A DNA stretch of 64,000 bases from Aphrocallistes beatrix (Eukaryota; Porifera; Hexactinellida; Sceptrulophora; Aphrocallistidae): positions 6,448,001 through 6,512,000 of the forward strand of contig OY725490.1 in assembly GCA_963281255.1 (NCBI GenBank), read 5' to 3'. The number at the start of each line of letters is the position of its first letter. The stretch's first letter is position 1. The notes under the pieces were generated by a model. The model was not told where the DNA came from. It was given only the letters and a program-made list of their open reading frames with translations, and searched no databases. Shown in pieces: positions 2,891 to 60,677 of this stretch. The translations under genes were made by a program, and so were the position numbers.

Positions 2891-3231
2891 CCTGTCTCAG
2901 TGTATAACAATATTGATCAAAATAATTAGGCCACCCAGGTTAACAAAATTTTTAAGTACCCTTGAGTGAATATTCATTTCATTAACTTGACTGAATATTC
3001 ATTCATTATACAACGCTAATAATTCCAATTTTATAGATTTTAAAATTTAATAGGTAATACTCGTAATCCTCCCCCTAATTCTAAATGCAAGTCATGATCT
3101 GTTTATAGATTATTTATTATAGAATAGTTGAAGTGTTCAGTTTATGAGTGATGAAGTTTCTGTAAGAATAGTTATCGACAATCTAACTCTAATCAATTTC
3201 AATTGATATAATTTTAAAATTAACCATACGA

Positions 3232-3980
3232 TCTAAGTTGACTCATTCATGAATTAATAATTCATAATTCGAATAATTCATAATTCATCAAGCCTGAGAA
3301 GAATTATTCAAAATTGGATTTTTACAAAAAAATATCGTGATTATATTGAATGAATTTTTCGTTATAATTCATAATTCAAGATTCTGAATTATTGGGGATA
3401 CAGACAATTCGTGACATTACAATTCGTGACATTCTTGTAGTCGTGTAAACAATCATTAGTTGAGATTAAAGAGTTTCATTCAACTTTTTTTGATTAATTA
3501 AAGATGAAAGACAATTACAACTAAAAGAATTACTTTCCGAGAGAGAAATTCATTCTCACATTCTAACATTGAATTCATCAATTCTATGTTGAATAGTCAC
3601 AAATAGCAATGTCACGAATTGTAATGTCACGAATTGTATGTCACGAATTGTAATGTCACGAATTGTAATGTCACGAATTGTCTGTATCCCGAATTATTGG
3701 AATCAGCTTCATATCTTAGTCGAAGTTGACTAATTCAAAAAATGGCAAAGAATTATGAATAATTCAAATAATTCATAATTCCTGAAATATGAATTGTTCG
3801 AATAATTCATAATTGTCATATTCAGGAATTATGAATTATTTGAATTATTCATTAATTCATGAATTTGTCAACTTAGCTTATGATTGACTAATTCATACTT
3901 GAATTATGAATTATTTGAATAATTCATAATGATTTGCCATTTTTTTTATGGATTAGTCAACTTAGACTAAGATATGTGGT
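3232..3980. repeat. AT-rich palindromic repeat block (AAGTTGACTAATTCAT family)
   Basis: Dense inverted and direct copies of attcataattc and gaataattcat units, bounded in several places by AAGTTGACTAATTCA and its reverse complement. The same family recurs at 6144-6465, including the distinctive CATCAAGCCTGAGAAG motif. It looks like a miniature inverted-repeat element that has been partly tandemly amplified. The copy here is split by a separate element at 3395-3690. Confidence 0.7.
3395..3690. mobile_element. Foldback-type miniature element with 9-bp target duplication
   Basis: 296 bp. The ends are GGGATACAGACAATTCG and its exact reverse complement. Both arms are built of 15-16-bp tandem units (ACAATTCGTGACATT), two units on the left and about four on the right. 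A perfect 9-bp direct repeat, GAATTATTG, flanks the element at 3386-3394 and 3691-3699. A 9-bp duplication plus repeat-built arms is typical of MULE-related or foldback elements. There is no coding capacity, so it depends on a transposase encoded elsewhere. Confidence 0.8.
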
Positions 3981-26190: not shown

Positions 26191-27675
26191 TCAAACTAAT
26201 TTTCCCTTACACCCTACTCCATGGCAATCTGGGTAAGGAAAGGTATTCGGTACAATATTGACCTGAGTAGACAGTTGGAGTATATGGAGTTTCCCGTTCA
26301 TATGCAGTTCGTACGTCGCCTCCAAAAAGCACCCACTCCACCCCACTGTAGGAACATCAATCTCCCCTCTATAAGTGAGATACCCTTGGTGATTGGCTTC
26401 CTTCTTCTTCCATAGGATTAACTGTGGGGTTGGGTTGTTGGGATCAGGACCTGCTATCAGTCGGAAATCCCTCTTAGGATTATTTGGCAAAGTGTTGGCC
26501 TGCCATAGAACAACATCTATAGGCTTCACGTTGGTGTTGAAGATTACCCTAGCTAAAGTTTGATCATTTTCAAATTTCCAGCTAACCTCCGGAAGTTTGT
26601 GATGTGTGAAAACGCTAACCAGAAACGCGCTTATATCTTCTATTGCACCTAAGACGTGTCCTGTAAGTGAGTGCTCTGCATTCGGGAGCATCTTAATGTA
26701 CTTGGGTCCAGGTAATTTGTCCCAGAAGTAGTAATTGTCATCCGGCATTAAGAACTCATCTCCACACGTGTTGATGACTAGGATGGACAAGTTACTGCGC
26801 TTGTAACGATCAAAGTACGCGTAAGGGTCTACAATCTGAAACAGTTCTGCAGTTTCAGGTGTATCTAAATTCTCAGTGACATTTGCATTGAAATAATCTT
26901 TAAATGCAAACGTCCAACCATCATAGGCTCTATACATATGATGGAGTACAGGTAGAGCATTTAGCACGTCGAGAACGATGGGAACAATCGCGACGATACG
27001 CGTATCCACCAAGGCAGATGTCCAGGTTGTCCAACCCCTTTTCGAAGCACCAGCCACTCCGAATCGTTGTATATTCAAGCCATACATCTTCCTAATGACC
27101 TCTGTGATTGTGTCCATAGCGCGTACGACTGCTTTTGTCATTGGCAATCGAGCTAGGTATTCTGGCTCACTCGTGTTTTGGATGAAATGTTTCCAGGTGT
27201 AAGCGATTAATGCGTCTTCCGTACGTCGCTTTTTATCCGGGTCTTCTGAAAAGTAGATTGGTTGATTGGGGATTTGTTTCAGATTGGCAGTGATAGCGTT
27301 GGTAGATAAAGCCAGGAGTGAACAGAATTCAACTTCTTGGTCTTTAATTCCAGGGAGACTGTCCCCGTTGTGTCCAGCTCCCACATATATCCCTGCGAAG
27401 TCATCAGTATCTCTCTTTTCGGGTACGATTATGGTCAGATAATGGTACCATTCTGACTGGCTCACCAACTTCTCATTGAGCCATGTTTGTGAAGTCATGT
27501 TAATAACGTATTGCGTGAACAACCCATCTATCACGTTTATCTCCTTTATCTCATATTTGTACGAGTCATCTTTTTTGTTGACATAATCATCTAGCGGGGT
27601 GCTAGATGTTTGGATCAACAAGATTACAAAACTAGCAAACAATAGGTCCCCAGTAAATTTCATAATTTGAATCAT
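26191..27675 (-). CDS. Secreted PhoPQ-activated-protein-type alpha/beta hydrolase
   Basis: 494 residues; ATG at 27675, with a second ATG at 27663 placed directly before a classic signal peptide (about 5-25). Family landmarks: WYHYLTIIVP (76-85), YVGAGHNGDS (97-106), nucleophile elbow GVAGASKRGW with Ser211, an acid candidate in GDEFLMPDD (Asp306 or Asp312) and His335 in NAEHSL. These match the PhoPQ-activated pathogenicity-related (PqaA-type) family, known from bacteria, Dictyostelium and a scatter of invertebrates, whose substrate is not established. The C-terminal third (about 365-480) looks like a beta-sandwich appendix. Several N-x-S/T sites suit secretion. Single exon; codon use does not look foreign. 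Confidence 0.85.
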   Translation of the reverse strand: MIQIMKFTGDLLFASFVILLIQTSSTPLDDYVNKKDDSYKYEIKEINVIDGLFTQYVINMTSQTWLNEKLVSQSEWYHYLTIIVPEKRDTDDFAGIYVGAGHNGDSLPGIKDQEVEFCSLLALSTNAITANLKQIPNQPIYFSEDPDKKRRTEDALIAYTWKHFIQNTSEPEYLARLPMTKAVVRAMDTITEVIRKMYGLNIQRFGVAGASKRGWTTWTSALVDTRIVAIVPIVLDVLNALPVLHHMYRAYDGWTFAFKDYFNANVTENLDTPETAELFQIVDPYAYFDRYKRSNLSILVINTCGDEFLMPDDNYYFWDKLPGPKYIKMLPNAEHSLTGHVLGAIEDISAFLVSVFTHHKLPEVSWKFENDQTLARVIFNTNVKPIDVVLWQANTLPNNPKRDFRLIAGPDPNNPTPQLILWKKKEANHQGYLTYRGEIDVPTVGWSGCFLEATYELHMNGKLHILQLSTQVNIVPNTFPYPDCHGVGCKGKLV

Positions 27676-29136
27676 AGATTAGCCTCACGTTGATATGTAT
27701 TATTAATCTGATATCGCCTATCCAGGTCAGGTGGTAGGTTTGATATCTGATAGTACATTTGATATGACCCTTATTAAACGAAGTCAAGATAATCAATGCA
27801 AAACATAGAGCAATACGTAGTATCATCTTGTTCACGTGTATTCTACTTCTAAAATTTGAATATTTAGTCAATCATATTTAAATCTCTTACATAATTCACA
27901 ATTGAAACTAAATTAAATTGAATTTTACTCTTTCAAATGAGTAAAGCTAACTTTTAAAGTTGTATGGTTAATTAGAGATCGTAAGGAATATATTGCAAGT
28001 GGATATGGCAACCACTTCTTAAAAGTATTATACTTGTAATAACTTTGAAGTATCAAAGAAAAGTACTTTAATTATGCTCCTCGTAGAAAGTTGTTGATTG
28101 TCCAGAAGTATCTATCTACATTCTACCAACTACCCACCATAAGCTCGAAAGTAGTTAGAACCTGCTGCAGTTATGTTTCTAGTTATAAACTATCTTTGTT
28201 TATTTTTATTCATTACATCATAAAAGATTTATATTTATAAGTTTTGAATTCACCTTTATCTCTTATTTTTAAAAATTACACTGAACATTTACTTAATTTT
28301 ATATATTTTAAAGTACAGTTCAATAAAATTGTGTTTAAGAATAGTTGATTATTTTGAAATTTTGTCGAGTTTCAACCATCTTCTAACAATAGTCTATCCT
28401 TATTTGAATCATATTCTTATATTTCCGAATTATGAACTTTTGTACTAATTTATTAGTCCAATTGGTTTTGTCAGTTTTGTCCGGTTTTAACCAGGTTTTG
28501 TCTACTGTTAATGTTCAAAACCCAACTCTCTGAAACCAATTGTCCAATTTAGAAAAATGCAATTTCTACATACGCGAACTCTCTCTATATATACGTATTA
28601 TAAAATATTTCGCACTACCCGACATATCAATGACTTCAAAGATGAAATTTTTCTAAGATCTCTGATTCATAGATACGTCTGCGATCTGATTCTGCGAAAT
28701 AGAATGCATTAATTCGTATAAAATTGGTAGAAAGACCCTAGGGCGTGGACGTACGCATGTTGTACATTTCGCGCACGACAATTACATCTAAAGAAATAAT
28801 CATTTACTTTTGAAATTGAATCCTGTCAATGTACATAATGAACTATCTCTGGATATAACGAAATATTAGGATAGCTATTAGAACTAAATTCCTCTTCATG
28901 GAAAAAAACTGAGGTCATAACAAAACCCCACTTATAATAATTAAAATCTGGCTTTGTTATAACAGAAGTTGACTGTATATTGCAAAACTATATATTTTCA
29001 CACCTCAAATCTGTTGAAATTCTTTGGAGTTGCAGGAATGTTCTCCTTGCCGACATACTTAACAGTTGCTACCGTTGAACTGAGATAACATCTTACTATT
29101 AGATATCCCGCATAATCTCCAGTTCAGTTCCTCTCA
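27676..29136. other. Divergent intergenic region (hydrolase / TLK)
   Basis: Must contain both promoters. A decayed TA-type miniature element may occupy about 28830-28978: its right end, GTTATAACAGAAGTTGACTG, is followed by TA, and a weakly similar inverted stretch lies near 28830-28865. Otherwise AT-rich sequence without genes. Confidence 0.4.
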
Positions 29137-41214: not shown

Positions 41215-44200
41215 TCAAGGTATGTATGTTATGAGGTAGGAAGGGTAGGCCATACAATTCTTGTAGACGGTATGGATCAGCTCACCTTCTCGCCTACCCT
41301 GTACGCTATGGTACCTGTGCCCACTATTCGGCATCGGAGGAGGTCCAGTGAGGTTCCTATCTTGATCTAGTTCTTTTGCATAGCCTACAAACACAGTTGC
41401 TAGAAACACACAACACACATTACTTTTTGTTGTGTGTCGATATCTAGTATTATGGGAATAGGAGCAATTGGTAGCAAAATATATCCCTCTTCCCCAGAGT
41501 CCTCCTTGTGCGAAAGCCATATTAAACCCCTCCGTGTCGCTGATAATCGAATCAGGACTTGTGTTACCAGACCCATGGAAGAGAGAACGGATGAATAGGC
41601 AGCTTTGAGGGTGTCTGACTGTTTCTCGGATAATGTTCTGTGTGAACGCTCTCCAGCTTGTGGGATTGTATATCTTCTCTATAAGCATGATCTTAGAGTA
41701 AGGCATTGAGGTGTAGAAGCATCGTGATACCCTCCTGAATTCGTCGAGTTCAGGGTTTAGCCTGTCTCGTTTAAATTCTGTCCCAACGTCAACTAAAATA
41801 TAATAAAACACAACTAATTTCAGGCGAATAACATTGAAATACCAAGTGTACCATAGTATTATCATTGCTACAAGCGCGCTTCGCTTGCTTGCGCTGCGCG
41901 GCTGGCGGACACTCTGTGTCCGCCGGAGTCGCCCTTCGGGAGCCTGGGGTCACATTGATTAATCAAAAGGGAGATAACATCTCTAAATATGTCCGTCTTA
42001 CTGTCATAATCGATATCACTCAAAAATCATCAAATTTGTCAATTTTTTCATTTTTGATGCGTAATGATGACGTCATAACAGTGATGAGTCATCATTTTTT
42101 GAATATAGTTGTATTATATGTGAGATATATTAATATACACATTCTATTAAAATTTCAGCCTTCTATCACTTAAAATGGCCGAGTTATGATCGAGAAACTG
42201 AAATTTCTAATTATTAAAAAAGGTGACAATGACGTCATAATTCCATGATGAGTCGACATTTTCGTCTGAGCTCAGAACTTAGTGGAGCCATAGCCAAAAG
42301 ACTCCCACATGCCAAAAATCAGTCCCGTCCGAAATTCCATAATATTGAACCTGTGTATAGCGGTCACCTGCTCAACGCGGCCAGCGGCCACCCGTTTGTA
42401 GTCCCTTACTGACCCTAAACTGTGTATAACGGCCATCACCTGTCTATAACGACCATCACCTTTTTCACCTTTTTATGTGTTTATTACAGGACCTGTTACG
42501 AACGAAAAACAAATTTCATGTAATTACTTCAAATAATGGATTTCTAAAACTTGATATTTATTGCACTACGTTGATACAGGGTGTCAGATAATTATTTTCA
42601 AAACATTGTTTTATCATTCATGGTTTCAGAACCTAGAGCAACTATGACTAGCTGCATTTTGCTGGTGGAAATGAACCTAAGTAGGCTTTGACTAAATTTA
42701 AAATCATTCATTTAAGTGGACAATTTGATTTTTAGGTTGAAAATCGTTACGTCATCATGATGACGCGACTTTTTTTATTGATTTTTATTTATTGATATTT
42801 TTACAATTATTTGCTAGATAATTTGTTCTATTATGTCTCAACTATCAAAGTGCATTCACATACGAATCTTATTAGATGGTAAAAAGCACTCGATTGAAGA
42901 AATTAGTCGACTTGTAGGTGTGTCTACCAGGACTGTTTACAATGTAAATTCTAGCATTAAATCAGGAGTTGGGATTAAACACAAGAAAGGCGCAGGTAGA
43001 CCCTCTAAACTTATTCCTCAAATAAAGAAATTTGTCGCGAAATCCATCAGCTTGGATCCTACTACCTCTATACGAACATTGACATCAAAATCACCAGTGA
43101 TTATCTCTCGAGATACAGTACACAGATGTCTTCGTAACCTTGAGTACTCGAAGCCGTATCCAGTAAAAATTCCGATGTTAAGCGAAAAGAATCGCCTTTA
43201 TAGGGTAGAATGGGCTAAGTGCAATATGTCAAGAAGATGGGAACACTCAATTTTTGCTGATGAAGCTTCTATATGGCTATCAAGAGGTCGTGTCAGAATG
43301 TGGACCAAAAAAGGTCAAATTCGCCTGCAACCCACTTGCAAACATACACAGAAAATACACATCTGGGCTGCATTTTCGTCCGTAGGAACATTTCCTTTAT
43401 GCATATTCACTCAAAATCTTGACTCGTCCCTATTTACAAAGATATTGGAGGTTCATTTATTAGCACAAGCAAAAGTATTTCACAATAAAGAGTGGGTTTT
43501 GGTTATGGACAACGATCCAAAGCACACCTCGAAGGCAACAAAGGCTTGGATGAACGAAAATATGCCTAATAGGAGGTTAGAGTGGCCAAGCCAAAGTCCA
43601 GATGTTAATCCAATAGAAAATCTCTTTGGTTGGATCAAGTACGAACTGTCCAAACGCAGTCCAAAGAACATTTCGGCCCTTAAAAGTGAGCTTAATGACA
43701 TTTGGAGCAATATCGATCCTGTATTCCTAGAGCCTTACTGGTCTTCTATGCCTAAAAGATGCCGTCTCTTAATAGATGGAGATGGTTATAAAATTGATTA
43801 TTAATATATTATCATAAATGAACACATAAAATGATTGATATATGCCTGCAACATCTACTTCTTCGCATATAATCAAATTAAAATTTGAAAATAATTATCT
43901 GACACCCTGTACCTTTTGGGGATTAAGACAATCACCTGTATATAAATATATACAGATTAATCGAGTTTTAATAGTAAGGATTTATGGATACATAATATAC
44001 ATTTGTATCAAAAATTGTCAGCGGACAAACCAATAGTAGTAAGAGTCGAACGATTACATTTGGTTGATGAAGATTTTGTACTAAACTTCCTAAAGATAAA
44101 CTTATTTAAATTGAAAGAAGAATACTAATTGCTAAATGCTAAGTCAGCCATAGTATTTTAACTTACACGTAATAATTTCAGCGATGATAGGTGGATTGGG

Positions 44201-47200
44201 TGAGGGTTGAGATCTTAACATCGCTTCACTTTCGTTCAAAACCATAGCATTCATCTCTGGAAACTCTCTTATTAGCAGTTGAATAAACAATCTGGCATTT
44301 GTTCTAGCCTCAATAGCCTGGTCTGCGGTAAATATTTGCTGAGGAATATAACAGCCCATTCCTGGAGTACAGGTGACAGATGGTACACGTGTCTCCATGT
44401 CGTAATTCATTAGAGGAATAATGTATCGTTCAATTTCATTTCGAATATCTTCACTTGGTATTAAGAACTTAAGATGGTCTAAATAAAAACGTAAATTTCT
44501 CTCAAACTCGGGTCTATTGCTAGATCCCTTGTAATGGAGGAGAGCAATGAAAGCCTTCACGACAGCTTCAAAGCTGCAGAAGCAGGCGTGAGCTGGGAAC
44601 AGATGTCCTCTTTCACACGATATTGCCATTAATCGATCTGCAGCGTACATGTCGCACTGTGATACCATTAACCAGCGTTTAGCTGCTGGGATATCTGGCT
44701 CGCCCATCGTGATGCCCATGTTTTCTGGGTTTAAACGAGGCCCATACATTGGAACTCTACAAGTAACAGTATTAATAGCCATTGGGTGGTCAGTTGAAAT
44801 GTCTGGAGTGGGTAGAGGAGGTGTGACTGCTATTGGAACATCCATCCTTTGAGGATGAATGGGGGGCTGTTGAGTCCAAGGATCGATTGCTATATTGTAT
44901 TGATTCAATTTATCCATTAATTTTGTTGGACACAGCATGAAGCATAGTTCAAAAGGTGAGAGAGCTTCTGTAAAAATATTTCCGAGGTGTGTATTTATCG
45001 CAAAAGCGATATCCTTATAAATACAAGTATCTGTCGAATAACATTGTGAGATCAGAAATTGGTTATTACCGTCTATATAACAACCACACGAGTTAGTGAG
45101 TGGATGAGAAATTTGTTGATTATCAATGATAAGAAGATCGATCTGTTCCACAGATATAACTTGGAGATTGTGCAGGAGCTGAGATACGGAGAGGAAACCG
45201 GGGTGAGGTTGGCCATCATCAAAACAGGTTTCTCCGTTTCTCAGTAAAAGCTTCTCCAAATCTTTCCTTGTTAAATGAAAGTACAAACGTCTCATCGCAC
45301 TGAAAACGGTTCTATTTCTAAGTCGATCTTTCAAATAATTAGCTAAAGTACCATTTGGTATCTGTTGGCGATATACATTTGGGTTAATTTCTTCCCTAAC
45401 GAGTTCGTTTAATTTCCTCAAACGTAAGCACAAAGGCGGAACGCACGATTTGTTCTCATCTGGTTCTAACGGTTTCAAAATGTTGAATTGGAGTTGAAGT
45501 TCATTTATCCTTGAAAGAAGTGATGGGTTATCTCCAAATACCACTTCTCCACTAGGAAATAGTCTAGAATCATTGGTTAACAATATTATTTGTGCTAGGT
45601 CTAGATTGAGTGGGGTGCACGAGTTATCCAATTCTCTTAAAGCATGAATCAAATGATTGAATACTGTCTCAGCTTGTTGGAGGTAACGACTATCGTTCAA
45701 CTCAATATTTGAAGTTTCTAGATACGCATGTATGCTTAGTAACACCAGAGCAAAGTGTTTATAATTTGCCTTCATCTCAACTCCGATTCTTGAAAAAAAG
45801 TTCGGACATCGACCTGCTAATGCAAGAGGTAACTGTATTACGAATGGTGAGAGACCTTCGCTTGAGGTGAAGAGCATATTAATAGGACAGTACAATTCAC
45901 CCTGACACAAAATACACGCCAAATCAAAGAGTTCATTGAAATTAGTGTATGTGTTGTAATGCGATTCTAAATATTCGTATGAAGAAGTAAAACACTTACT
46001 CAAATCATCTGAGATATTGTTCATCTCATAAGACATTAATTGCCTAGTTATCTTAATTAGATGCTTTTTAACTAAATCGGGATCTGGTTGTTCAATGATA
46101 CCAAGATATCGATAGCATGCTGGAGGAATCTTAAAGGGGTATTCGTGTATCCACGCAGTTGTAGAGCAACAGTGTTCGAATTCGTTTAATTGTGCATCAC
46201 AGAATCTAACCAATTCTAGCTGGTGAGGAGATTGGTTGATGAGGATATCTTCCATGATCCAAGCAGGAAGGAATTTAACTTGTTTGATTTGTTGAAGCAC
46301 TTCGGTACTATTAGGATCAAAATTATGCTCAAAAGTCATTTTATTTAAAATATCTGCCAGTGTATCTAAAAGATAAGGCAAATTCTCAAAAGGAATTTCA
46401 TCTCTAGAAAATTTATGCGCTACCTTCAATATGTCCTTCAGAGTCACAATGTTCTGAAGTCCTAGTACATTAAAAAGATGTCTGAAATTATCATCTCTCC
46501 AGATTTCAGGGAGGGTATTAAATGCTAAAAACTTGCAGAAAAAATCGCTTTCATATGAATAAAGATTTTTAATTGTATAATTATGATCTTCTAGACAGAT
46601 GAATGGAATTTCCCTTAAAACATTGATCAAATTGATTGATTCTTGATCTATCCTTCCTCCAGCTAGTTTTTGTGCAAACAAACTTAGTATATTTTTCTGT
46701 TCTTTGATCTGAAGACTGGGAAAATTGGGGAAAATAAATCTCAAAAGTAATCCTTTTACGTCTACGAGCTCCTTCTGAAGTTTGGAGAATAACAACTTCA
46801 AGAAATTTTCTTCATGGTATCGGAAAATAACCAAGTTGTAACCATCCTGAAGTATTCCTAGAATCTCGGGACCAAGATGAAGTGACTCAATGTTCATAAA
46901 ACATCTCTCACATTGGTTCAATGATAAATATTCTCCTGAAAGAGCTTGAAATAGCTTTAACTCGGATATGATATCTAGGTTTCTGCGTGAATTGAATTGT
47001 CCGGGGTTCATTTGAGAAAATATATGATATAACTTGCTTGCCTCTTTCGGCTCCAGATTTGCTGCTAAGTTGGTACAAAAGGAAAGTGAACCAAGGATAA
47101 ATTCACCAGCACGTAATTGTGAAATTGCTATTTTATCAAGATAAGATTTTATCTTAGACTGGGAACATGAATATCGATCAAAAAATTCAAAAAACAAAAG

Positions 47201-50200
47201 GGGACATCCTAATGCAGTTAATGCGTTGAATAAAATTGGAAATTTAGTCACATCATTGAGAGTTTGACTGACCATGTATTTCAGATCTTGTATTGGATAA
47301 AAAGTGCATGGCACATCGTCAGATTTAACTGGGACTAATTTATGTTTACTGAAACAATTTAAATCTTCAATATCTAGATTATTCTGTATCACAAATTCCC
47401 AGAATAACGAGTACTGCTCAGGTTTATCAAACTTTTCAACATCCAAATGCTTAGAAAGGAAACTACAATCCATCTCACACACATAACCGTGCATCGACAT
47501 CTTTGCTACAATACTAGGAAGATATCCTTCAGATATAAATCTATCTGAACAGTGAGGTAATAGAGGAGAGAATTGATGTCGGAATGAAGGCTTATCTCTT
47601 CTAAAGCAGCCTACATTATTTTCAATATCAATACACAATGGAATAATGGGATTTCTTGTAAATAATTCATCACCAGCAGTTAGTATGTATTCTAAAATGG
47701 TTTGAAATTGTTCAAAATCAAGCTTGGAACTGTTAAGACAATAAGAAGAAGCGTTTGCTTGAAATAGAGAGTGTTTGTTGTTATTAAGATGACTGAGTAG
47801 CAGAGATTGATTTAACTTAACCAATCTAAAATCTTTAAAACAGTTGGGAGCAAGAGAAAGTGGAAACTGAATGAGAATTAATGATTTCCGGAGCTGGTAC
47901 TCCTTTCGTTTCGATTCAGTATCATCATTTGTATTGATTTGTTCAGTATTTGATATAGTTAATTCATCTGTCGGTTTAATTACACCACAATCGGGGCCAT
48001 GTAATGTGTACCATTTTGGCTCGTCTCCTTCCGCTAACATATCAAGGTTGTCGCATAACAGAATGGGCTGATTAATCTTGTAGAGGAAAGAGTATAATGT
48101 TCTACTCAAATTGGCTAAGAATGGATCATTGCCTTCGTCAGGGAAGAGAGAATAAAACCATTTAAAATATTCTTGTTTGGCTTCCAAACAATTTAGAGGC
48201 TGGGATGGCTCTCTTAAGTCGTATAACAGCAAGGTGTAGAGAGGTACTAGGATGGTTTCTGTGATAGAAGAATGCCAGGCCTCTCTCCAATCAGAAAATT
48301 GGTTACTAAAATGCTGCCTTGAAGCATCAGAAATAAGTGGGGCATTAATAAAAACGGGAAATTGATCTCCTGGAAAAGGCAGAAAATTAAATAATGAGAA
48401 TCTTTTTACTGGATGATAATCAGAAATGCAAACTGCAATTGCGCCAAAACCCCATAACTTTTCTTCACATAGTTTCCCACGAAATTGTTCAAGTTCTGGT
48501 CGACTACTCAGATACTGTTCGATGTCTGATTCAGGGAAAAAGTAAACGACATATTCGAATTGAGATTTTCTAAAATTAAACGAAATCGTGCAGGATTTTC
48601 TCTGTACTTTTAGATTATCTTCAGTGTTAATACGCGGAAAATAATCTGGAATTGGCCTTGGTATTGAATCTAACGTTTGAAAAGTGTGTAAACATTCCAA
48701 AGTAAGCTTCTGATTATTATCAATACTAACAACTTTCAAAGATTGAACATTATTTAAGAAAAGTAACATCTCAGGACAATTGTTTAACTGATCTATTATG
48801 GTGTTCTTGAGGCTCTCGAGTGAGCAATGTTTCCTTGATTCTACTTTACTATAAGGTATCTTAGAGTTCTCCAAATTACAACATATGTCAAGAGGGAATC
48901 TGAACATTGTGAACTCACTATTTATCCACAAGTTAGCGAGACTGTTAACCATTTCAGGATTTTCAGAAAATTCATCGAATTTAAATGGGAAAAACTGGTC
49001 GGGGAATTGGGCATAATTCTCACTTTTTACATCAATTCTCTTTCCTCTCTTTTCCTTATAACTTCTTGAGTCAAAACTTGTAGCTGTGTACTTAATAAAA
49101 GGATCAATGCAACAAAAGGTCAATCCTTCCTGTCCATTTTGCGTAGTAATGAATGTTGGTGCATCAGTTATTTGATAGACAGAGTTGAATCCTAGGCCAA
49201 ACTTCCCAATACTCTTTCTATATTGAGCTTTTCCTCCCACACTCAAAGTTTGAATTCCTTCTAAATCTTCCTCAGTGAATCCCTTGTTATTGTACACTGA
49301 GAGAGATGGAACGGAGTGGAGAAGTTTCCAATTAGGATACACTTCTCCTGGAAGTGACAGAGTCTCCCCACACCTAGTGTAATCTTGGTCATCTAAGATG
49401 AATACAATTTCGGTCGCCTTGGCATCTTCTGCATTCTGGATGAGTTCTTTAACCAAATTAGCCATTGGAATGTCTCGAACTAAACTCTGAATTCTATCAG
49501 TGATCTCCTCCTCTACACCAAAATCTGATTCATTGAGATCAATGTTAGTAGAAAATAGCTCTTCTGATGTCTTAGCTCCAAGTATTGAAGCTGTGATATG
49601 GTTGATCTCCTGATGCACAAACAAGTTTAAATCTTTATTTTGTAAGCGTGGAGATATGTTAAATAAATGTAGTTTACAAGGAGACTGGAGAATATTTGTT
49701 TGACTAAGAAGGTATATTTTACCCCGACAACTTTCACAATCATCAATTAATGAAATCAATTTTAAAACCAATCGGACTAGGTTCTGAGGGAGGCGTGCCG
49801 CTCCAAATTCCTCACATATTTTATGTAAACAAACGATTATCGTGTTGTCATCAATTCCTTCTTTTACACCAACGGTGATTAAGAATCTCTTAAATTTCAG
49901 ATCTCTCAAAGGATCAATGTAAGGGAAGGCGATTATATACTTATTTTCATCCAATGTCTTAAACTCTGTAGAGAGAATGACTTGATTGGAAGGGTAGAAT
50001 TGTTTATAGTCTGGATGCCAAATCCATGGTCCATCTTTTAGCTTCTCTCTAATGAGATCCATTTCCGGATCATTGGTTTCATATCGAGATAGATTTTTGT
50101 AGATTTCCAGAAATTTCTCATCAATGTTGAAATCACAATCCTTAATACAATCTACTTCAGAAATTAGAGTGTTTAAGCATTCTAAAACTATTTCAGTTGA

Positions 50201-53200
50201 TGGGACCGAATTGATTTCAAACCTGGGAGGTATAGAAACAGCGTTGGAAGCACAGGGGTATAGAGGTGAAACAAAGTGTCGACATGAAAATGTATAACAC
50301 TCTTCTGGAGAAGTGAATTGTATGTGATCGATGGAGAGTGTTTCAAAGAGATCATCTTTATGTGTCGGAATGAATGAAATTGATTTAATCTGTGGATAGA
50401 TTGAGTCAAAGAGAGCCCTATCTTCCCGAGAAAGATACTCAATCAGAGTCGTGGCATGTCGAGTTGATTCTTCAACATTGAGAGTAGACGTGATGTGACA
50501 GCGACTGATCACTTCACACTCTGGTAGTCTCTCATAGATAACACCCATCTTCTTCAGGACAGTAGAAATCAGTTCTAGTTTGCTAAGGTCGAACTGTTCA
50601 TGAAGTTCTGATACAGGAATTCTCATCTCATCACGCTGATACAATGAAGCTATCTTCGTATTGGGACAAACAACTTCTGAAGGTTTTCTTAATTGAAATC
50701 CAGACTCAATACTTCCACAGGGAATGAATGCGACATTGCACAATGAATTCAGTAACCAATTTTCCGAATCTTCAATGCATAAAGGAATAAGACTGTTAAA
50801 AATTAGCACAAGTTTCTCTAAGGGAAAATTGGCTACATTTTGAAAGATAATACCCTCACAAATTTTCTTGAGATCGAATACTTTTTCGGGTTTCAACTCT
50901 GCAAATATTTTGTATATCTTAGTTGACATAAAAAACGATGGAAGGTATGCGAATATCAATCTATGTTGATAAGCTTTCGTATAAATAAATTGAAGAAAAT
51001 CATTATCAAGGGGGTGATTAACAGATAAGAATGATATCTCATCAAATGAAACCCAAACAGAAGGATCGTGTGCACAAGAAAACAATTTCGATGAGGAAAA
51101 CGATTCAACAATGCGTCTTGCAAAGTATTCGGGAAATGCCTTCCAAATAATATATGGATTGTCCTTGACAGGCCAAAGAGAATAATAGTTTTTATAATGT
51201 TCTGCCTGTCCACTGCCACGTAGAGGTTCGAACTGAGGCAATGCCTCGAGAGCACAAATCAGAGCATTGGAGAGAGCATCATTGAAGATAGCAATATTCC
51301 AATCTGTACGTAGATCTGTGTTCTCACTACTGGATACATCTACGTCGCTCAAGTTTTTCCTCGAAGTAGAGAGAGAAAAATATCCATTTATGTGCAGGGG
51401 AAGTGGACTTCTGATAGTAAGGGGCAGGAATGTGTACAGTTTACCCGGGTTTCTTGGTGTATTCTCAATATTTTCTAAAGGGACAGTTACACCACATAAA
51501 GGTAGGAATGTCTTACCTGAATTTGTGAATTTCTTTAAAACGTCAAAACATTCTTTAACACCAGTGGCATAAGAAATAATGCATTTCTTTTCTTGAGAAT
51601 CTTTGCAGATTGATATTCTGTCAACAGATTTCACCGAGTCTGGCCTACAATTTTCCCTTATTTTAAGCAAATAGTTTTCAAAGTATTTCTTATTATTTTG
51701 CAAGAAATGTGTAGTTGGACATTCACTCTTAGAAATGGTCAACAATTTATCGATAGAATTCTTTCCTATACTTCTCTCATATACCTCAATGCTAGTAACA
51801 TTCTGAAGGAACAAAATAAAATTTGGAATTTCCCTTATAATGTATTTCTGAAGTTCAGCTATAGCCTCGCAGCTAAATGTCTTATCTGAGAGCTGACTGC
51901 GATTTGTCCGGAAAGGCAAACGGAAAAGAGTGTATTTATAGGGATTACGATTCAAAATATCACAGTCGAAGATATCTTGATACACTCGGAACTGATCCTG
52001 AAAAGTAGAGATAGCGGCTTCATCATCTGTGAAACGGATCTTAATGCCTGAGTCTCTGCTAAGAGGACCGATGTACTTCCTAAGAGGATCGAAGATCTGG
52101 ACTCTGCGGTCACTTACAAAGCTGGGACAATCAGTGAAGTTATACACTGCATTGAATCCTACACCGAATCGACCTACTTTTGAAGGATCGTTCAGTTTAT
52201 TTCCGGAGGAGAGTTTGAGAATACTCGCGAAATCCTGATCTGTGAATCTAGAATCGTTAAACACGTAGAGAGCAGGTCCATGCACTCCTTCCATGTTCTT
52301 ATGCAATACTGAACTGCAAGGATGAGATTTGTAGTCGAAGAGGATTTTAACCTGTTTAGCACCTGCATCGTCTGAATTCTGAATCAGCTCTGAGAAAACA
52401 TCCCATTGGACACGGTACCCCTCAAGGATGCCTCTGAGTCTTTGGACCAAATCCTCACTCTGTCCAGCATCCGATATGAATGAGTAGGAAATGCTCTCAG
52501 CTGTTGGAGTCATTTCAAGGCTTGCTGGTAAGCAGCCGATCTTATTCGCAATTGTGTTGGACACGCCTGAATGAACGATAGGCTTGATAGTCGCTAACTC
52601 GGACCTCTCCATCCAAGGTAAATCATTGAATACACACTGATCAGCTGGGTATATCATACAGTCCTGTGCTATCACTAGGGACTGATCGAATTCATGAATT
52701 AAGTCTGCAGACATTTGTACTACTCTTAGTGCCAACTTAACTTCGCTCGGAGAGAGACAAAGTATTTGAAGTTGTTCTAAAATAAATTGACATTTAAGAA
52801 AGGTTATCTCAAGATCAATGTCGAAAGTCGTAAAAAATGAAGTAAATATTTTTCCATAATACTTTTCAAGTGAGAACACATGTGGTGTTAGTATATCATC
52901 ACATGAAAGAACTACGCGACCAGTGTCGTAAAATCCAAACTCAGGTATATAAACAAATTTATCTGGTAAATCTATCTCTCTTTTAACATTGTTGTCAGAG
53001 AAGATTTCCTGTTGAAAATACTTGTAGATTTCTTTCACGTTATGGAAAAGATCTTGATGATTTATATTTGACCGTTCTGAAACAAGACTTTTCAACTTCT
53101 GGCAAACTAAAGATATTGGGAATGTGGTTTCGAACCCCATGCACCGAAATATAGCACCATAATTACAGCTTTCATCTGACTTATCAACTATCAGAGGAGC

Positions 53201-56200
53201 CATGCCCTCTATTAAGCATGAATTATGTTCAGAGCACAAATACGATTCAGAAGGCTTGAAATATGATCCATTGGACAAAATAAATTTGGAAAATTTAAAT
53301 AGATTATTCCAGAAATTGTGACGGTTACGGAGATCAAATTCAATCATATGTAAGCTAATTAACTGTACCAGAGCAGAGATCCATTTTTTATAGTCTCTTA
53401 TCTTCTCTACGTTCTCAATTGCCTTCTTTATATTTCTTTCGAGGATTGAAAATTCCAATTTACTACTTGATTGCAAGCCAAGAGCTCTTAAATAATCTAT
53501 ATTATATATTTCATTCGGAAATATACCTTCTATGCCTGTTTCCTGGACACACATGAGCTGTGACATGATTGTGTCTTGCGGATCACATAAATTGGAGGGA
53601 GAAAAGAGTTTGAATTGTCCTCTCAAGTTGGGATTAGCATTCGAATCCAATAACCACTTAGTATTAGATAAAAACTTTCTAGCATCTTCATTAAGAAGTG
53701 AAAAATTTCGCAAAATCCATAAGGAGAGATATTTACGTTTTTTTGGTTGGTCTGTAAGACTATTCGAAGAGATCAAGGGTAATAAATGGTACTGAATCAT
53801 TTCATCAAAAGAAATCGACTTTATACCTAATTTCCAACAAAGCCTAACATTTAGATTATCGCGAGGATTTATAAAACTTGGAAAACAATCTAGCTCGATT
53901 GGAATCAAGTCGTGCGGGATACAATAACTTGTATTACGATCGAGGGCGGAATAGTAGGTCTCGCCGATTAAGAGAAATATTGGAAATGATTTGATCAGAT
54001 TCTCTTCAGCATTATCCATACTCTCGATTGATAGAATGGCATTTATTAAAGATTTTACTATTGAGATGCTTGCATTGGCAATGTTTTTAACGAACGATAT
54101 TTGTATTTCAGTTGGCAATTTTAGGATGGAGAGTAACCCCCGAGGGATGGACGGTTGTACAAATTCATGGTAAGGCAATATGAAGGCATGGCGATGACAA
54201 ATATGACAGCCACTCGCTCGAATCAGCTGTTCAATTCCTGAGTGAGTGGGTGTTGAACTGTGTTCGAAGTATGGCATGGTTGTGGTACTGAGTGGGAGGA
54301 GATCTATTCGAGGAGTGTGGAGATCTTGCTTTGGTAGAAGAGGTAGTTGGTGTTTCTTAAGTACACCAATAATTGCCTTATCTTGATCAATAAATTTCCA
54401 CACTTGCTCTATCCAACTCTTGTCAGGTTGGTTATCAAGACCTGGAGTCCAGACTACAGGAAAATCGAAACTGAAGAATGCTTTCATTGAGGATTGCAAA
54501 AAGTCTACAAAATATCGAGCATCACTACGAATATTTGTTATATCTTGTATATTGATGCGTCCAGATCTGCTCAAACTTAATAGAGAAACATTAATTGGAT
54601 GGGGAAGGGACCGCTTAACAAAATATCGTCCAGGAAATATTTTACTAAAATCTTGAGAACCATCACTAATGAAGCAAGTTTCGTCTCCAAAACACACTGG
54701 AAGTTCTGAATTGCTCACTGGAATCAGTTGGATTCCCTCCAGCATATCGGAAACATCATTAGATGAAAAATCGAGATCACACAAAACAATTTCTAATAAT
54801 GCATACACATTCTGATCATGTCGAAGGAAATAAATTAATGTTTCGCTTTCAAAACGAATTAACATCTGCCTTATCAAAGCAGGACTTATGATCGATTCAG
54901 AAAGTTGTTGTTCTAAGAACTCATAATTTCTAATAACATTAGACACTTCAGGAGTCAATTCAACTATTGGCTGAGAGAGTTTGAGAAGAAGGTCAGTACA
55001 CACCTCCTCATGAGGGATAGTTCTACCGAATGATGAAGGCAGATAGTAGCCTTTGCAAAGTTCTATCCAAGTGGAGTCTAATTTAGAACAGACTAATTTC
55101 GAGTTTCGTAGGATGTGCAGAGCTCCTGAATGGATGATGGATTGCAACTCATCTGTCTCGCTATCAGAAGGGAGACAAGACCACAAGCTGTAATGGAGCA
55201 TGCTCCTTCCCTGTGTGCGGAATCTAGAGACCGCCAAGTGTATTAGAACGGCGTATGAAATGGTTCCTAACTGCTCCACCAGGTCCTTGTTCCACTTCGC
55301 TTCATCACTCAGATCGTCAAATCGAGGCCATTTAATGAAGCGACGATTCGTACTCAGCGCAAAATAGCCGTGAATATGAAATGGAAGTTTAGAACTCGCG
55401 GCTATTGGCAAGAAGCAGAACAGATTTCCAACAAAATTCCTCATCTCACAGGATAATGGAATGCTAGGAATGTTATTATCAATAAAACTAAAGAAAAGAG
55501 CTGTATCGATAAATTCCTCTGACCAACAACAGTCCTGATCTAGAAGCGCGTGCAATGTGTGTTGAGAATGAGGGAGAGGGAGAGCAACGGCGAACCAAGG
55601 CAAGTAACTCTCGAATTGTCTCGATCCAGACCTGCCAGCTTGATCAGGTAGACCCAGCATGTTCATTACTAGCCAGAGACGCACTGTTTTGGTTTGGTCA
55701 CAGTTTATGAAGCAAGTTGGAAATATGGTTATAAAAATCCTCGATGAATGATTGTGAAATTTACTTTGAATGAATTCAAACATGTTCTTTCTGTATAGAT
55801 TCAATTTCTCTCTGAATGAGCTGTCCACTTCAACAGAATAGAGCAGTTTTGTTCCTGAATTGTCTTTAACTGACACTTTTACTGAATAAACACTCTTCAT
55901 GAACAAGAGACAGTTCTCAACTTCCTGTTTGAATGGATCGAAAAGACGAGTTCTTATTTTGTCCGGATCATAGATATTCTCAGGAAGGGAAATGTTGGAT
56001 GCATTTGTCCTGAGTGGAAACCGAAAAATTGTTCCATTATATGGATGTGTACCTGTGTAGCCGAAATAAGTGTTGAATGATTCAAAGTGACTTCGTATAC
56101 GGCGAGCTGAAACAAATTTATTTAATTCTATGATGAGACCGCCTTCTTTGTCAATCACCTTGTGCGGGTCGAACAGAAGAACATTTTCGTTGCTCAGAAT

Positions 56201-57130
56201 GCAAGGAAAGTCTGCGAATGCAAATAATAAAAAATTGTAAATCATTATACAAGTACGTATATACCTCTAGCTTATTTCAGATATACGTATATCAAAAATT
56301 TATTAAATTTCTCGATTTTTTTCAATAATCGAATTACAAGTACAATTTGATTCCCTCGGGCCACCCACGATCCTGTTCCCAAGATAGTTCTGAAATATGT
56401 AGTATATTTAAAATCACTTGATTAGCATGATATTTCAAACTAACCTGTAATATGATAAACAGAAATAAAACCCAGTCCGAACCGTCCAACTTTGAGAACT
56501 TCATTCTCCTTCAAGCTCATACTGATGTTTTGAATTCCCACCCAATCATCTTCTCTGAAGACGGCATCATTCCATGCGTACAGCGCTGGTCCCTGGTACT
56601 TCGCAACATCAGGATGTAGGAGGTGATCTGTGCTATGATGTGTTTCGTCGAGTAGGAATTCTACCTCACTCGCACCTGCATCATCTGCGTTTTGTATCAG
56701 CTCCTGAATTTTTTAAAAATGGATTTATAATATGTCGGTCGCCGATAATATTTATCTTATGAAGTGATGTTTTAGGTTTTTTGCTCGATGATGCAAGTTC
56801 AAGGCGTTTTAAAATCTCGAGATATATCGGCGGTCGACGTATGCTTTAATCTTCTGAAATCTAGATACTGTTCTGACACTTAATTGCATTTAAAATAAGA
56901 AAAGTCCTTAATTGAGTATGTTAATATCACAAATATAGAGTAATTTGAATACTTTTAATATCTGACTTCCATCAGGATAATTCCGCAGAATACTCGTGAT
57001 CTGTACTGTTAGTGGTGGAACTCGTTGACCATGCGATCCTATAAAACAAGTACGAATTGAACGAATTGAAGGCAATACAACTCTTCAACAAAGTAAAAAA
57101 CTTACTGCCAATATCATCATCTGAGGCCAT
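41215..57130 (-). CDS. Giant sacsin-like ATPase-HEPN protein with predicted C-terminal PARP domain
   Basis: Predicted exons on the minus strand: 57130-57106, 57038-56953, 56703-56445, 56211-44167 and 41792-41215. All junctions are GT-AG and phases join to 4,330 residues. Three sacsin repeats begin with HSP90/GHKL N-boxes: [10 protein letters not shown] (38), [10 protein letters not shown] (1398) and ELIQNAEDA (2379). Their glycine boxes are GRFGLGF, GRFGVGF and GKFGLGF. A HEPN-like helical domain spans about 3965-4110 ([15 protein letters not shown] onward). Past the junction near residue 4139 comes a PARP catalytic fold: [26 protein letters not shown] (His4211), GRGIYFA (Tyr4243) and IHTVYKN with Ile4311. 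An H-Y-I triad implies mono-ADP-ribosylation. The last junction is inferred: if that 2.4-kb intron is retained, the protein would stop at 44144. Sacsins act in protein quality control; the joint role here is unknown. Confidence 0.7.
41866..41960. repeat. GC-rich hairpin segment inside the sacsin-PARP intron
   Basis: A GC-dense island in AT-rich DNA: repeated GCTTCGCTTGC / GCGCTGCGCG words, then a 9-bp perfect hairpin at 41903-41923 (GGCGGACAC, 3-base loop, GTGTCCGCC), then GCCCTTCGGG. Composition is sharply unlike its surroundings. It resembles a mobile-element terminus but I could not find its partner. Confidence 0.4.
42420..42470. mobile_element. Fragment of the ATAACGGCC miniature family
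   Basis: TGTGTATAACGGCCATCACC followed by TGTCTATAACGACCATCACC repeats the terminal motif of the element at 15923-16048. No intact ends. Confidence 0.45.
42577..43909 (+). mobile_element. Intact Tc1/mariner element, DD35E type
   Basis: 1,333 bp. The first 26 bases (starting CAGGGTGTCAGATAATTATT) are an exact inverted copy of the last 26, and TA dinucleotides flank both ends (42575-42576, 43910-43911). One uninterrupted transposase frame lies inside (42833-43804). It is inserted, in the opposite orientation, in the intron between the sacsin-HEPN exon and the PARP exon. Perfect ends and an open frame suggest recent arrival and possible autonomy. Confidence 0.92.
42833..43804 (+). CDS. Tc1/mariner transposase, DD35E
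   Basis: 323 residues, ATG at 42833. The N-terminal helix-turn-helix region (about 17-60) contains [19 protein letters not shown] and a GRPSKL AT-hook-like/nuclear signal (55-60). The catalytic triad is Asp143 (FADEASIW), Asp226 (first Asp of MDNDPKHTS) and Glu262 (SPDVNPIEN). There are 35 residues between the second and third acids, hence DD35E, not the DD34E of classical Tc1. It cuts and pastes the element at TA sites. The start lies 256 bases inside the left end. No stops or frameshifts. The ORF is slightly shorter than typical Tc1 transposases (about 340), with no missing core motif. Confidence 0.95.
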   Translation: MSQLSKCIHIRILLDGKKHSIEEISRLVGVSTRTVYNVNSSIKSGVGIKHKKGAGRPSKLIPQIKKFVAKSISLDPTTSIRTLTSKSPVIISRDTVHRCLRNLEYSKPYPVKIPMLSEKNRLYRVEWAKCNMSRRWEHSIFADEASIWLSRGRVRMWTKKGQIRLQPTCKHTQKIHIWAAFSSVGTFPLCIFTQNLDSSLFTKILEVHLLAQAKVFHNKEWVLVMDNDPKHTSKATKAWMNENMPNRRLEWPSQSPDVNPIENLFGWIKYELSKRSPKNISALKSELNDIWSNIDPVFLEPYWSSMPKRCRLLIDGDGYKIDY

Positions 57131-59054: not shown

Positions 59055-60677
59055 ATGTCGAGAGCTTATGAAGACTTGGGGAATATAGATGCTGGGAATG
59101 ATTTCGGAGATGGAGGTCTCACCACACCTTTCGTTTGGGACAAAAAGAGGCAAGCGACTGAAAAGAAAATTAAAAAACGGTTGTCGAAAAGCGAGCACAC
59201 ACACCGTGAAACCGAGCGTCAGACACAGAACAGAGAAGAGCTGTCACGTGTGAAAAAGCGCAGAAAAGAACGTGAGATGGAGATAAAGGAACGAGAAGAT
59301 GAGAGGTATCGAGAACAGAGGCAGAAAGAGACGGATCGATTCAAGGAGTGGGAAAAGCAAGAAGACGATTTCCATCTCAAACAGGCCAAACTTCGTTCTG
59401 AGATTAGACTCGGAAGTAACAGAGCTAAGCCAATTGACAAGTTGGCCAGATACGTTAGTTTATCTGCGTCTGAGAGTGCATTGGACGTCGAAGTGCAAGA
59501 GCCATACAAGATACTGATGGGACTCGGTAGGGATGATTTGGAGGACTTACTCGAAGACATCAAAGTATATGTGAGTATGGAGAAGGGAGAAAATCAGCAT
59601 TTTTGGAAAAATATCACTATTATTGTTGAGGAAGAAATAAGAACTGCGAAGAATGAGAAGAAAAGTTCAAACTCAAGGGCCGTTATAAATGCTCAACTTT
59701 ATCCAGAGATGATTGCAATGTTTGAGGGCAAATCTCACTCCGAGCTAGCCTCTCTCTTTGTCGAGATTGAAAGGAATCTAGAAACACAGGAACTTGAAGG
59801 GAGGACCTACTGGGAGTCAGTGTTGAGGCAGTTAAAGGCACACATGGCGAAGTTGAGACTGAAGGAGGGGCACCAGGATATGCTGAATAGGAAGTTGGTG
59901 TCCTTGAAGGAGGAGAGTTGTATGCAGCAAAGAGAGCAAGGGCACCAGGAATTAGCAACGGAAGCAGAGGAGCCTAGCATTGTAACAGGACCATCGTCTA
60001 GTCGTGACATAGCGCCGCATGAAGATAATACAAACGAAGACTTCTGCCTTTCTCTGTATGAACAGTCAAGCTACTCTCCTACACTCTTGTCTCCGACCGA
60101 GGTTCCGAATGAACGTGTCTTCTCCTGGGACCAAGCGAAGACTGAGCTCCTGCTGGCCCAGTCCCGCGTCATGCGGGGAGAAATGGCCGAAACGAACCTC
60201 TCCACTTCTGAGTCGGAGTTGGTGAGCCGAGCGGAACAGGACGGGTTCGTGGATGGGGAGGAGTTCTCGTCTGAAATTCGGATCGAGCATAGCTACTTGT
60301 GGATGGACAAGTATCGGCCTAGGAAGCCACGTTACTTCAACCGAGTTCACACCGGGTTTGAGTGGAATAAATACAACCAGACACACTATGACCACGACAA
60401 CCCTCCGCCGAAAATAGTACAGGGGTACAAATTCAATATTTTCTATCCAGACCTCATCGACAAGACGAAGACTCCGGAGTATTTCTTCGAATCGTGTAAA
60501 GATGGCAAAGAATTCGTCATTCTACGGTTTCACGCAGGCCCCCCGTACGAAGACATCGCGTTCAAGGTGGTGAACAGGGAGTGGGAGTACTCGTGTAAGC
60601 ACGGATTCAGATCCCAGTTCAACTGCAATATATTCCAACTCTGGTTTCACTTCAAACGAAACCGATACCGGAAATGA
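59055..60677 (+). CDS. CACTIN: Cactin
   Basis: 540 residues, ATG at 59055, single exon. The N-terminal part has NDFGDGGLTTPFVWDKKRQ (14-32) and a long charged coiled coil (about 35-125) ending in WEKQEDDFHLKQAKLRSEIR, followed by RAKPIDKLARY. The central cactin domain includes EPYKILMGLGRDDLEDLLED and YWESVLRQLKAHMAKLRL. The C-terminal CactinC domain is almost unchanged from other animals: DKYRPRKPRYFNRVHTGFEW, YKFNIFYPDLIDKTKTPEYF, and the final IFQLWFHFKRNRYRK. Cactin is a nuclear protein tied to pre-mRNA splicing fidelity and, in flies, to NF-kB/cactus regulation. The RS-rich N-terminus of the ~750-residue vertebrate protein is absent; an upstream exon cannot be excluded. Confidence 0.93.
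   Translation: MSRAYEDLGNIDAGNDFGDGGLTTPFVWDKKRQATEKKIKKRLSKSEHTHRETERQTQNREELSRVKKRRKEREMEIKEREDERYREQRQKETDRFKEWEKQEDDFHLKQAKLRSEIRLGSNRAKPIDKLARYVSLSASESALDVEVQEPYKILMGLGRDDLEDLLEDIKVYVSMEKGENQHFWKNITIIVEEEIRTAKNEKKSSNSRAVINAQLYPEMIAMFEGKSHSELASLFVEIERNLETQELEGRTYWESVLRQLKAHMAKLRLKEGHQDMLNRKLVSLKEESCMQQREQGHQELATEAEEPSIVTGPSSSRDIAPHEDNTNEDFCLSLYEQSSYSPTLLSPTEVPNERVFSWDQAKTELLLAQSRVMRGEMAETNLSTSESELVSRAEQDGFVDGEEFSSEIRIEHSYLWMDKYRPRKPRYFNRVHTGFEWNKYNQTHYDHDNPPPKIVQGYKFNIFYPDLIDKTKTPEYFFESCKDGKEFVILRFHAGPPYEDIAFKVVNREWEYSCKHGFRSQFNCNIFQLWFHFKRNRYRK

Follow-up and report, generated by a model that had tools for sequence, protein, structure and literature searches.

Structure of the locus

The window considered here is a stretch of 64,000 nucleotides from the hexactinellid sponge Aphrocallistes beatrix (assembly GCA_963281255.1, contig OY725490.1, positions 6,448,001 to 6,512,000), the minus strand of which carries a gene predicted to join sacsin-type ATPase (SIRPT) modules, a HEPN-like region and a PARP catalytic domain in one protein. 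Two minus-strand frames delineate it: one is open from 56266 to 44144 (4,040 codons) and contains, according to Pfam, three SACS stretches (PF25794, E 3.4e-138) and two HATPase_c_3 stretches, and the other (41949-41215) encodes the PARP catalytic domain (PF00644, E 1.9e-13, above the cut-off). A five-exon model accommodates both, and the joined translation comprises exactly the 4,330 residues that had been proposed in a first-pass annotation made from the letters of the window, with the terminal stop as its only stop. The features of the model are as follows.

57106-57130, minus strand: exon 1, predicted start codon and first 8 codons (MASDDDIG), open reading, GTAAGT donor
56953-57038, minus strand: exon 2, in which SIRPT module 1 begins; acceptor TTTTATAG, phase in 1, phase out 0
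56445-56703, minus strand: exon 3, ATP-binding core of SIRPT 1 (ELIQNADDA ... GRFGLGF)
44167-56211, minus strand: exon 4 (12,045 bp), remainder of SIRPT 1, SIRPT 2, SIRPT 3, linker and HEPN-like region
51755-52456, minus strand: SIRPT 2 ATPase core (PF25794), a module that matches the solved sacsin structures 5v44-5v47
48707-49510, minus strand: SIRPT 3 ATPase core (PF25794), Pfam match
44168-44740, minus strand: HEPN-like region, without a conserved Rx4-6H RNase motif
41793-44166, minus strand: phase-1 intron (2,374 bp), its position aligned in seven copies of the gene
41215-41792, minus strand: exon 5, PARP catalytic domain and stop; triad H-Y-I

Exons 1 and 2 are separated by an intron of 67 bp. 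In the model 8 residues precede the first SIRPT exon and there is no ubiquitin-like domain, with further 5' exons being possible; a J domain (DnaJ) gives no Pfam match at E<=1 in the 4,040-residue frame.

The junction between the HEPN-like region and the PARP domain

The reading of the locus as a single gene hinges on the junction between exons 4 and 5. The intron opens with the donor GTAAGT at 44166 and closes with the acceptor TATATTTTAG at 41793. Each splice site falls behind the first base of a codon, so that the frame continues across the junction; the first-pass annotation had likewise ended the long sacsin frame at this donor and placed the PARP exon after it in compatible phase, and its coordinates are correct. 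The strongest support comes from beyond the window: the genome searched (100.5 Mb in 28 contigs) holds six further copies of the arrangement, and the seven are named here window, K, F, G, H, E and B, copy G being the one on contig C1. In each of the six others, the HEPN match is followed by a GTAAGT, the nearest one downstream of it, that leaves phase 1, and ahead of the PARP domain there is a pyrimidine-rich AG whose phase is complementary. The phase-1 GTAAGT donor and the phase-matched acceptor are accordingly present in 7/7 copies at aligned positions, while the length of the intron between them ranges widely (window 2374, K 522, F 1597, G 370, H 2382, E 60 and B 425 bp).

The choice of acceptors counts against this reading to some extent, in that alignment and phase served to choose them from the AGs close by, with a single candidate only in G. 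Within about 45 bases, F and H each have two candidates, both in phase, K and E each have two, one of them in phase, and B has five, one of them in phase. Given this mode of selection, the phase of the acceptor is less independent evidence than that of the donor.

A rival reading is that the PARP frame is a separate downstream gene and that the two neighbours were duplicated together. The first-pass annotation had seen no other start for the PARP domain, a claim that needs qualification: upstream of the acceptor, at 41865, the PARP frame of the window contains an ATG in frame, and such an ATG lies upstream of the domain also in G, H and B. The two-gene explanation further gains from the presence of introns as long as 2.4 kb and from the fact that the fusion is predicted from genomic sequence. 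It is opposed by the three copies (K, F and E) that have no upstream in-frame ATG, by the agreement of phase in all seven, and by copy E, whose intron of 60 bp leaves no room for a separate 5' exon. We regard it as very improbable, and we are highly confident that the predicted sacsin-HEPN-like-PARP fusion, taken by itself, is real.

Sacsin-type loci in the genome

At least 47 matches to the SACS family were found in the genome, and grouping by position resolves them into 11 loci, each with three or four SIRPT modules as judged from the family matches listed. A counterpart of exon 3, the first piece of SIRPT 1, is among the matches listed at all 11. When the HEPN-like region of the window was used as the query, seven matches were obtained in the genome, every one of them at a sacsin locus (one on C1, two on C3 including the window itself, one on the minus strand of C7, one on C11 and two on C12). 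With the PARP exon of copy G as the query there were 12 matches, the best seven of which (E 6.9e-136 to 2.8e-35) are the exons located just downstream of the seven HEPN-like regions, the remaining five (E 2.2e-17 or weaker) being located elsewhere. By the matches listed, the HEPN-like and PARP parts are either both present or both absent across the 11 loci. The number of PARP matches expected by chance within 6 kb downstream of the 11 sacsin loci is about 0.009, an estimate based on 28 PARP matches in the genome, among which some exons of a single gene are counted separately; as seven were observed, a chance neighbourhood of sacsin and PARP is excluded. Beside a sacsin locus on C8 lie two pairs of near-identical frames in opposite orientation, that is, an inverted duplication. 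The genome also has MH2 (Smad) matches, in keeping with an animal source, Smads being specific to animals; a search for Wnt gave no match, and neither did its controls.

The PARP domain and its retention

The solved structures closest to both the window exon and a profile of the seven copies are those of PARP12, followed by PARP14 and PARP15 (E 9.2e-26 for the profile against PARP12). With respect to the catalytic triad, H and Y are found in 7/7 copies, and the third position is occupied by I in five copies and by V in two, this I aligning with the I of PARP12. In PARP14, a leucine at the position of the catalytic glutamate limits activity to mono-ADP-ribosylation (PMC13224862); the third residue of the fused PARPs is likewise not a glutamate, and the same limit probably applies to them. 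The H-Y-I/V triad together with the PARP12/14 kinship supports an assignment to the mono-ADP-ribosyltransferase type, as the first-pass annotation had supposed. The predicted structural model of the window PARP piece alone has a mean pLDDT of 31.8.

The ratio of non-synonymous to synonymous divergence (dN/dS, by NG86) of the PARP part is 0.15 between window and K and 0.125 between window and F; 21 pairs were compared for this part and as many for the HEPN-like part, many with saturated or uncomputable dS, and only close pairs are relied on. Judged by these ratios the PARP exon is under purifying selection. That it might be a dead exon was considered and rejected on the dN/dS of close copies.

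These results also bear on whether the main product might be a sacsin-HEPN protein, made by retention of the intron or from transcripts that end before 44144, with the PARP form as a minor isoform and the intron as a switch. Read without splicing, the frame stops shortly past the donor in the window and the six other copies, such that a PARP-less isoform could be made. Moreover, the window intron harbors a Tc1/mariner-like transposon:

42575-43911, plus strand: Tc1/mariner-like transposon in the HEPN-PARP intron, transposase open reading frame 42818-43804, with 43-nt terminal inverted repeats that are 84% complementary

The GTAAGT donor and phase-matched acceptor in all seven copies and the selective constraint on the PARP exon argue in the other direction, and we consider this explanation improbable.

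A search of prokaryote genomes with the PARP alignment yielded 33 stretches that fit the pattern, none of which was confirmed. Among viral contigs there were 13 stretches, the single confirmed one having another architecture (WGR-PARP_reg-PARP); that protein is encoded at positions 2035-3459 of a 210-kb viral contig. Within the sponge genome, neighboring PARP genes are present at C11:4341873-4355684, one frame having the architecture Macro-WWE-PARP, and a third PARP match lies at C11:4361265.

The ATPase modules and the HEPN-like region

The E/N box and the glycine box are found in all three modules of the window gene. From 30 SACS loci 24 modules were taken, of which 23 were readable and one had an internal stop; among the 23, the E/N box was missed only in the last module of K, whose sequence begins far into the domain, and the glycine box only in the second module of H. 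Sacsin structures are the best match of the SIRPT module in the PDB (E 1.7e-39). Furthermore, the modules (SIRPT 2 and 3 of exon 4) match seven TmtA models of PADLOC, a library of prokaryotic defense systems and candidates (best E 2.7e-84), the best stretch being residues 1268-1666 of the long frame. The PADLOC model library holds no description of TmtA, and a literature search that combined TmtA with 'phage' yielded nothing; the match suggests that sacsin-like proteins may occur among prokaryotic defense candidates.

The HEPN-like region is less easily placed. A domain search bore out the SACS and PARP assignments of the first-pass annotation, whereas for HEPN the window copy has no Pfam match at E<=1. 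PF05168 is matched nearly end to end and at the same place in four of the six other copies (E 0.0028, 0.13, 0.14 and 0.21), the best of these scoring 18.2 bits against a cut-off of 22; of the remaining two, one matches only an unrelated family (E 3.4) and one matches nothing. The predicted model of the window piece alone has a mean pLDDT of 53.6, and the dN/dS of this part is 0.24 between window and K and 0.28 between window and F. One R is invariant in the seven copies, and no more than two of them have an H at a distance of five to seven residues behind it; Rx4-6H strings are scattered through five copies, in columns that are not common. Since the Rx4-6H motif is not conserved, an RNase function is unlikely, and the suggestion of a HEPN nuclease was rejected. 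Human sacsin, too, has a HEPN domain without this motif, which several other animals retain (PMC3710099).

Family history and a conversion-like mosaic

In trees of the SIRPT modules, of the HEPN-like regions and of the PARP domains alike, window, K, F and G form a group (100/99 in each; in the first tree it is their second modules that do so), and E pairs with B in the first two (99/97 and 99/98, respectively). In the PARP tree, which took in only five other PARP exons of the genome, E and B are placed without resolution among two PARP14-like genes of the same genome. It is thus well supported by the trees that the fused gene was duplicated as a unit within the window-K-F-G group, and a single origin of all seven fused copies appears likely because they share the intron.

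The window gene and K are on one contig, 247 kb apart and on opposite strands. Over most of the gene about 35-65% of third positions differ between them, in contrast to the following tracts.

54914-55654, minus strand: tract near-identical with K, residues 310-556, dS 0.05
52007-52594, minus strand: second conversion-like tract with K, residues 1330-1525, dS 0.09

Over the 247 codons of the first of these, 8 codon differences are synonymous and 11 are non-synonymous, and more window-K tracts are found at residues 1750-1880, 1960-2000 and 2361-2450. The variance of the windowed third-position difference between the two genes is 0.033, compared with a maximum of 0.0097 in 1000 shuffles, and no such tract is seen between window and F across the 2,797 codons compared. 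The simplest reading of this pattern would be gene conversion between window and K limited to the sacsin part. Positive selection in the converted tracts was looked for and not seen, all five dN/dS values being below 1 (0.46, 0.40, 0.40, 0.10 and 0.25).

Other genes in the window

On the opposite strand the sacsin-PARP gene is adjoined by a Cactin gene (59055-60677). At 26191-27678, a frame of 495 residues matches PhoPQ_related (PF10142) across the whole profile.

Possible function

The predicted polypeptide would combine three or four sacsin-type, Hsp90-like ATPase modules with a HEPN-like helical region and a C-terminal PARP-type mono-ADP-ribosyltransferase. It would link a chaperone-like machine to a kind of enzyme that serves in stress and antiviral responses. 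We infer that it may be a defense or stress sensor in which the ATPase repeats gate the PARP domain. Specifically, we propose that a client, in the form of a misfolded, aggregated or foreign protein, or else a nucleotide, would drive ATP-dependent cycling of the sacsin modules, and that this cycling, along with assembly via the HEPN-like region, would position or release the PARP domain. Bound clients or nearby host proteins would then be mono-ADP-ribosylated from NAD+ during a stress or antimicrobial response, the mono-ADP-ribose tag marking the clients or signaling stress or infection. The HEPN-like part could bind a nucleotide or RNA, or dimerize, rather than act as an RNase. Such a family of client-driven, mono-ADP-ribosylating stress or antimicrobial machines is, in our judgment, the best explanation of the observations as a whole, and we advance it tentatively.

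Reports from other animals are of relevance here: sacsin is raised in the virus-infected brain of several fish (PMC8875540), viral RNA raises sacsin in oysters, and in Aplysia sacsin and PARP12 belong to one interferon-like co-expression module (PMC8195618). This induction of sacsin by viruses and viral RNA in fish and oysters, together with the TmtA matches, the multigene family and the conversion-like mosaic, makes a role in defense or stress more plausible.

Several observations weigh against the proposed machine. The induction papers concern other animals and sacsin that has no PARP. As dN/dS stays below 1 even in the converted tracts, it gives no direct indication of an arms race. The identification of the HEPN-like region depends on the sub-threshold PF05168 matches in 4/7 copies; searching the PDB with a profile of the region brought up no HEPN structure, and the predicted model, of low confidence, gave no meaningful fold match there (best E 0.64; none of 60 at E<=0.001). 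Among the matches listed from the genome-wide searches, neither HEPN nor a close PARP match is present at four sacsin loci (C20, C7 plus, C8 plus and C8 minus). In three of these PARP-less loci the long frame stops near the position of window residue 3900, before HEPN, and in the C8 minus copy, which may be broken, it ends slightly earlier. Copy K (C3:6226000-6245999) has three frame changes in its long exon, either real or assembly errors, its PARP exon being open. The PARP tree does not settle whether the seven fused PARPs form a single clade with respect to the PARP14-like genes. Finally, transcript, protein and activity alike are predictions from the genome.

It is also conceivable that the fusion is real and that, as a variant of sacsin, the protein serves in housekeeping or proteostasis, its mono-ADP-ribosylation marking chaperone clients without any special immune role. 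Sacsin has been described as a chaperone (PMC3710099), and purifying selection dominates the gene wherever dN/dS could be computed. Nevertheless, 11 loci, seven of them with PARP, in combination with the mosaic exceed what one housekeeping gene would need, and both PARP12/14-type enzymes and sacsin are reported in the virus responses of other animals (PMC13224862, PMC8875540, PMC8195618). We treat this as a serious contender that is somewhat doubtful on these grounds. A more specific version of the defense role, which we deem unlikely as it stands, would be a family of intracellular sensors in which sacsin modules replace the STAND NTPases of NLR receptors and a mono-ADP-ribosyltransferase serves as the effector, the sacsin part diversifying by conversion and the effector being conserved.

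The family offers a natural, repeatedly duplicated link of sacsin modules to an enzyme whose activity is easily read out and thereby a direct assay, in which whatever becomes ADP-ribosylated would be a candidate target of the sacsin modules. If the role is immune, a sensor class built on Hsp90-like ATPases would be added to animal immunity.

Comparison with known systems

Sacsin consists of a ubiquitin-like domain (N-terminal, in vertebrates), Hsp90-like modules, a J domain (ahead of HEPN in human sacsin) and HEPN (PMC3710099). The window gene resembles it in the SIRPT modules, the very long coding exon and the C-terminal HEPN-like region, and differs in the PARP exon that follows HEPN, in the J domain, which was not found, and in a model without the ubiquitin-like domain. 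In the sponge Amphimedon, sacsin-like proteins with DEATH domains have been described and a role in conflict proposed (PMC3710099). These, too, are several sacsin-like proteins within one animal, but there the adaptor is DEATH, whereas the family described here has a C-terminal PARP; none of the five Death domain matches listed for the Aphrocallistes genome falls at a sacsin locus. Expansions of PARP14-like genes are reported in sponges (PMC4245714), and sacsin belongs to a gene set diversified in corals (PMC6208414).

In cnidarians, TRADD-N proteins combine HEPN, Macro and PARP, and sacsin is fused to TRADD-N in other proteins (PMC8195603). They are immune-type animal proteins in which HEPN, like the HEPN-like region here, goes with a C-terminal PARP; the difference is that the report on them does not appear to place sacsin modules and PARP in one protein. 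Nor was such a protein found described in the literature searched, subscription papers and protein databases, in which an annotated record may exist, lying outside the search; this is in line with the first-pass annotation, to which no described protein of this architecture was known.

PARP12 and PARP14 carry accessory domains of the zinc finger, WWE, RRM/KH and macro types. The window family is akin to PARP12, PARP14 and PARP15 in the catalytic domain, with the H-Y-I triad of the window aligned with that of PARP12, and differs from PARP12 and PARP14 in having sacsin ATPase and HEPN-like parts in place of those accessory domains. With prokaryotic TmtA the likeness lies in the SIRPT modules, which match seven models; unlike the whole TmtA model, the best stretch spans only positions 12-337 of 1370, and a search of PADLOC with the PARP frame gives nothing at E<=0.01. 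To judge from its domains, the architecture would be a new variant of the sacsin family, and, if its role is immune, it could provide a link between animal immunity and the sacsin-like defense candidates of prokaryotes.

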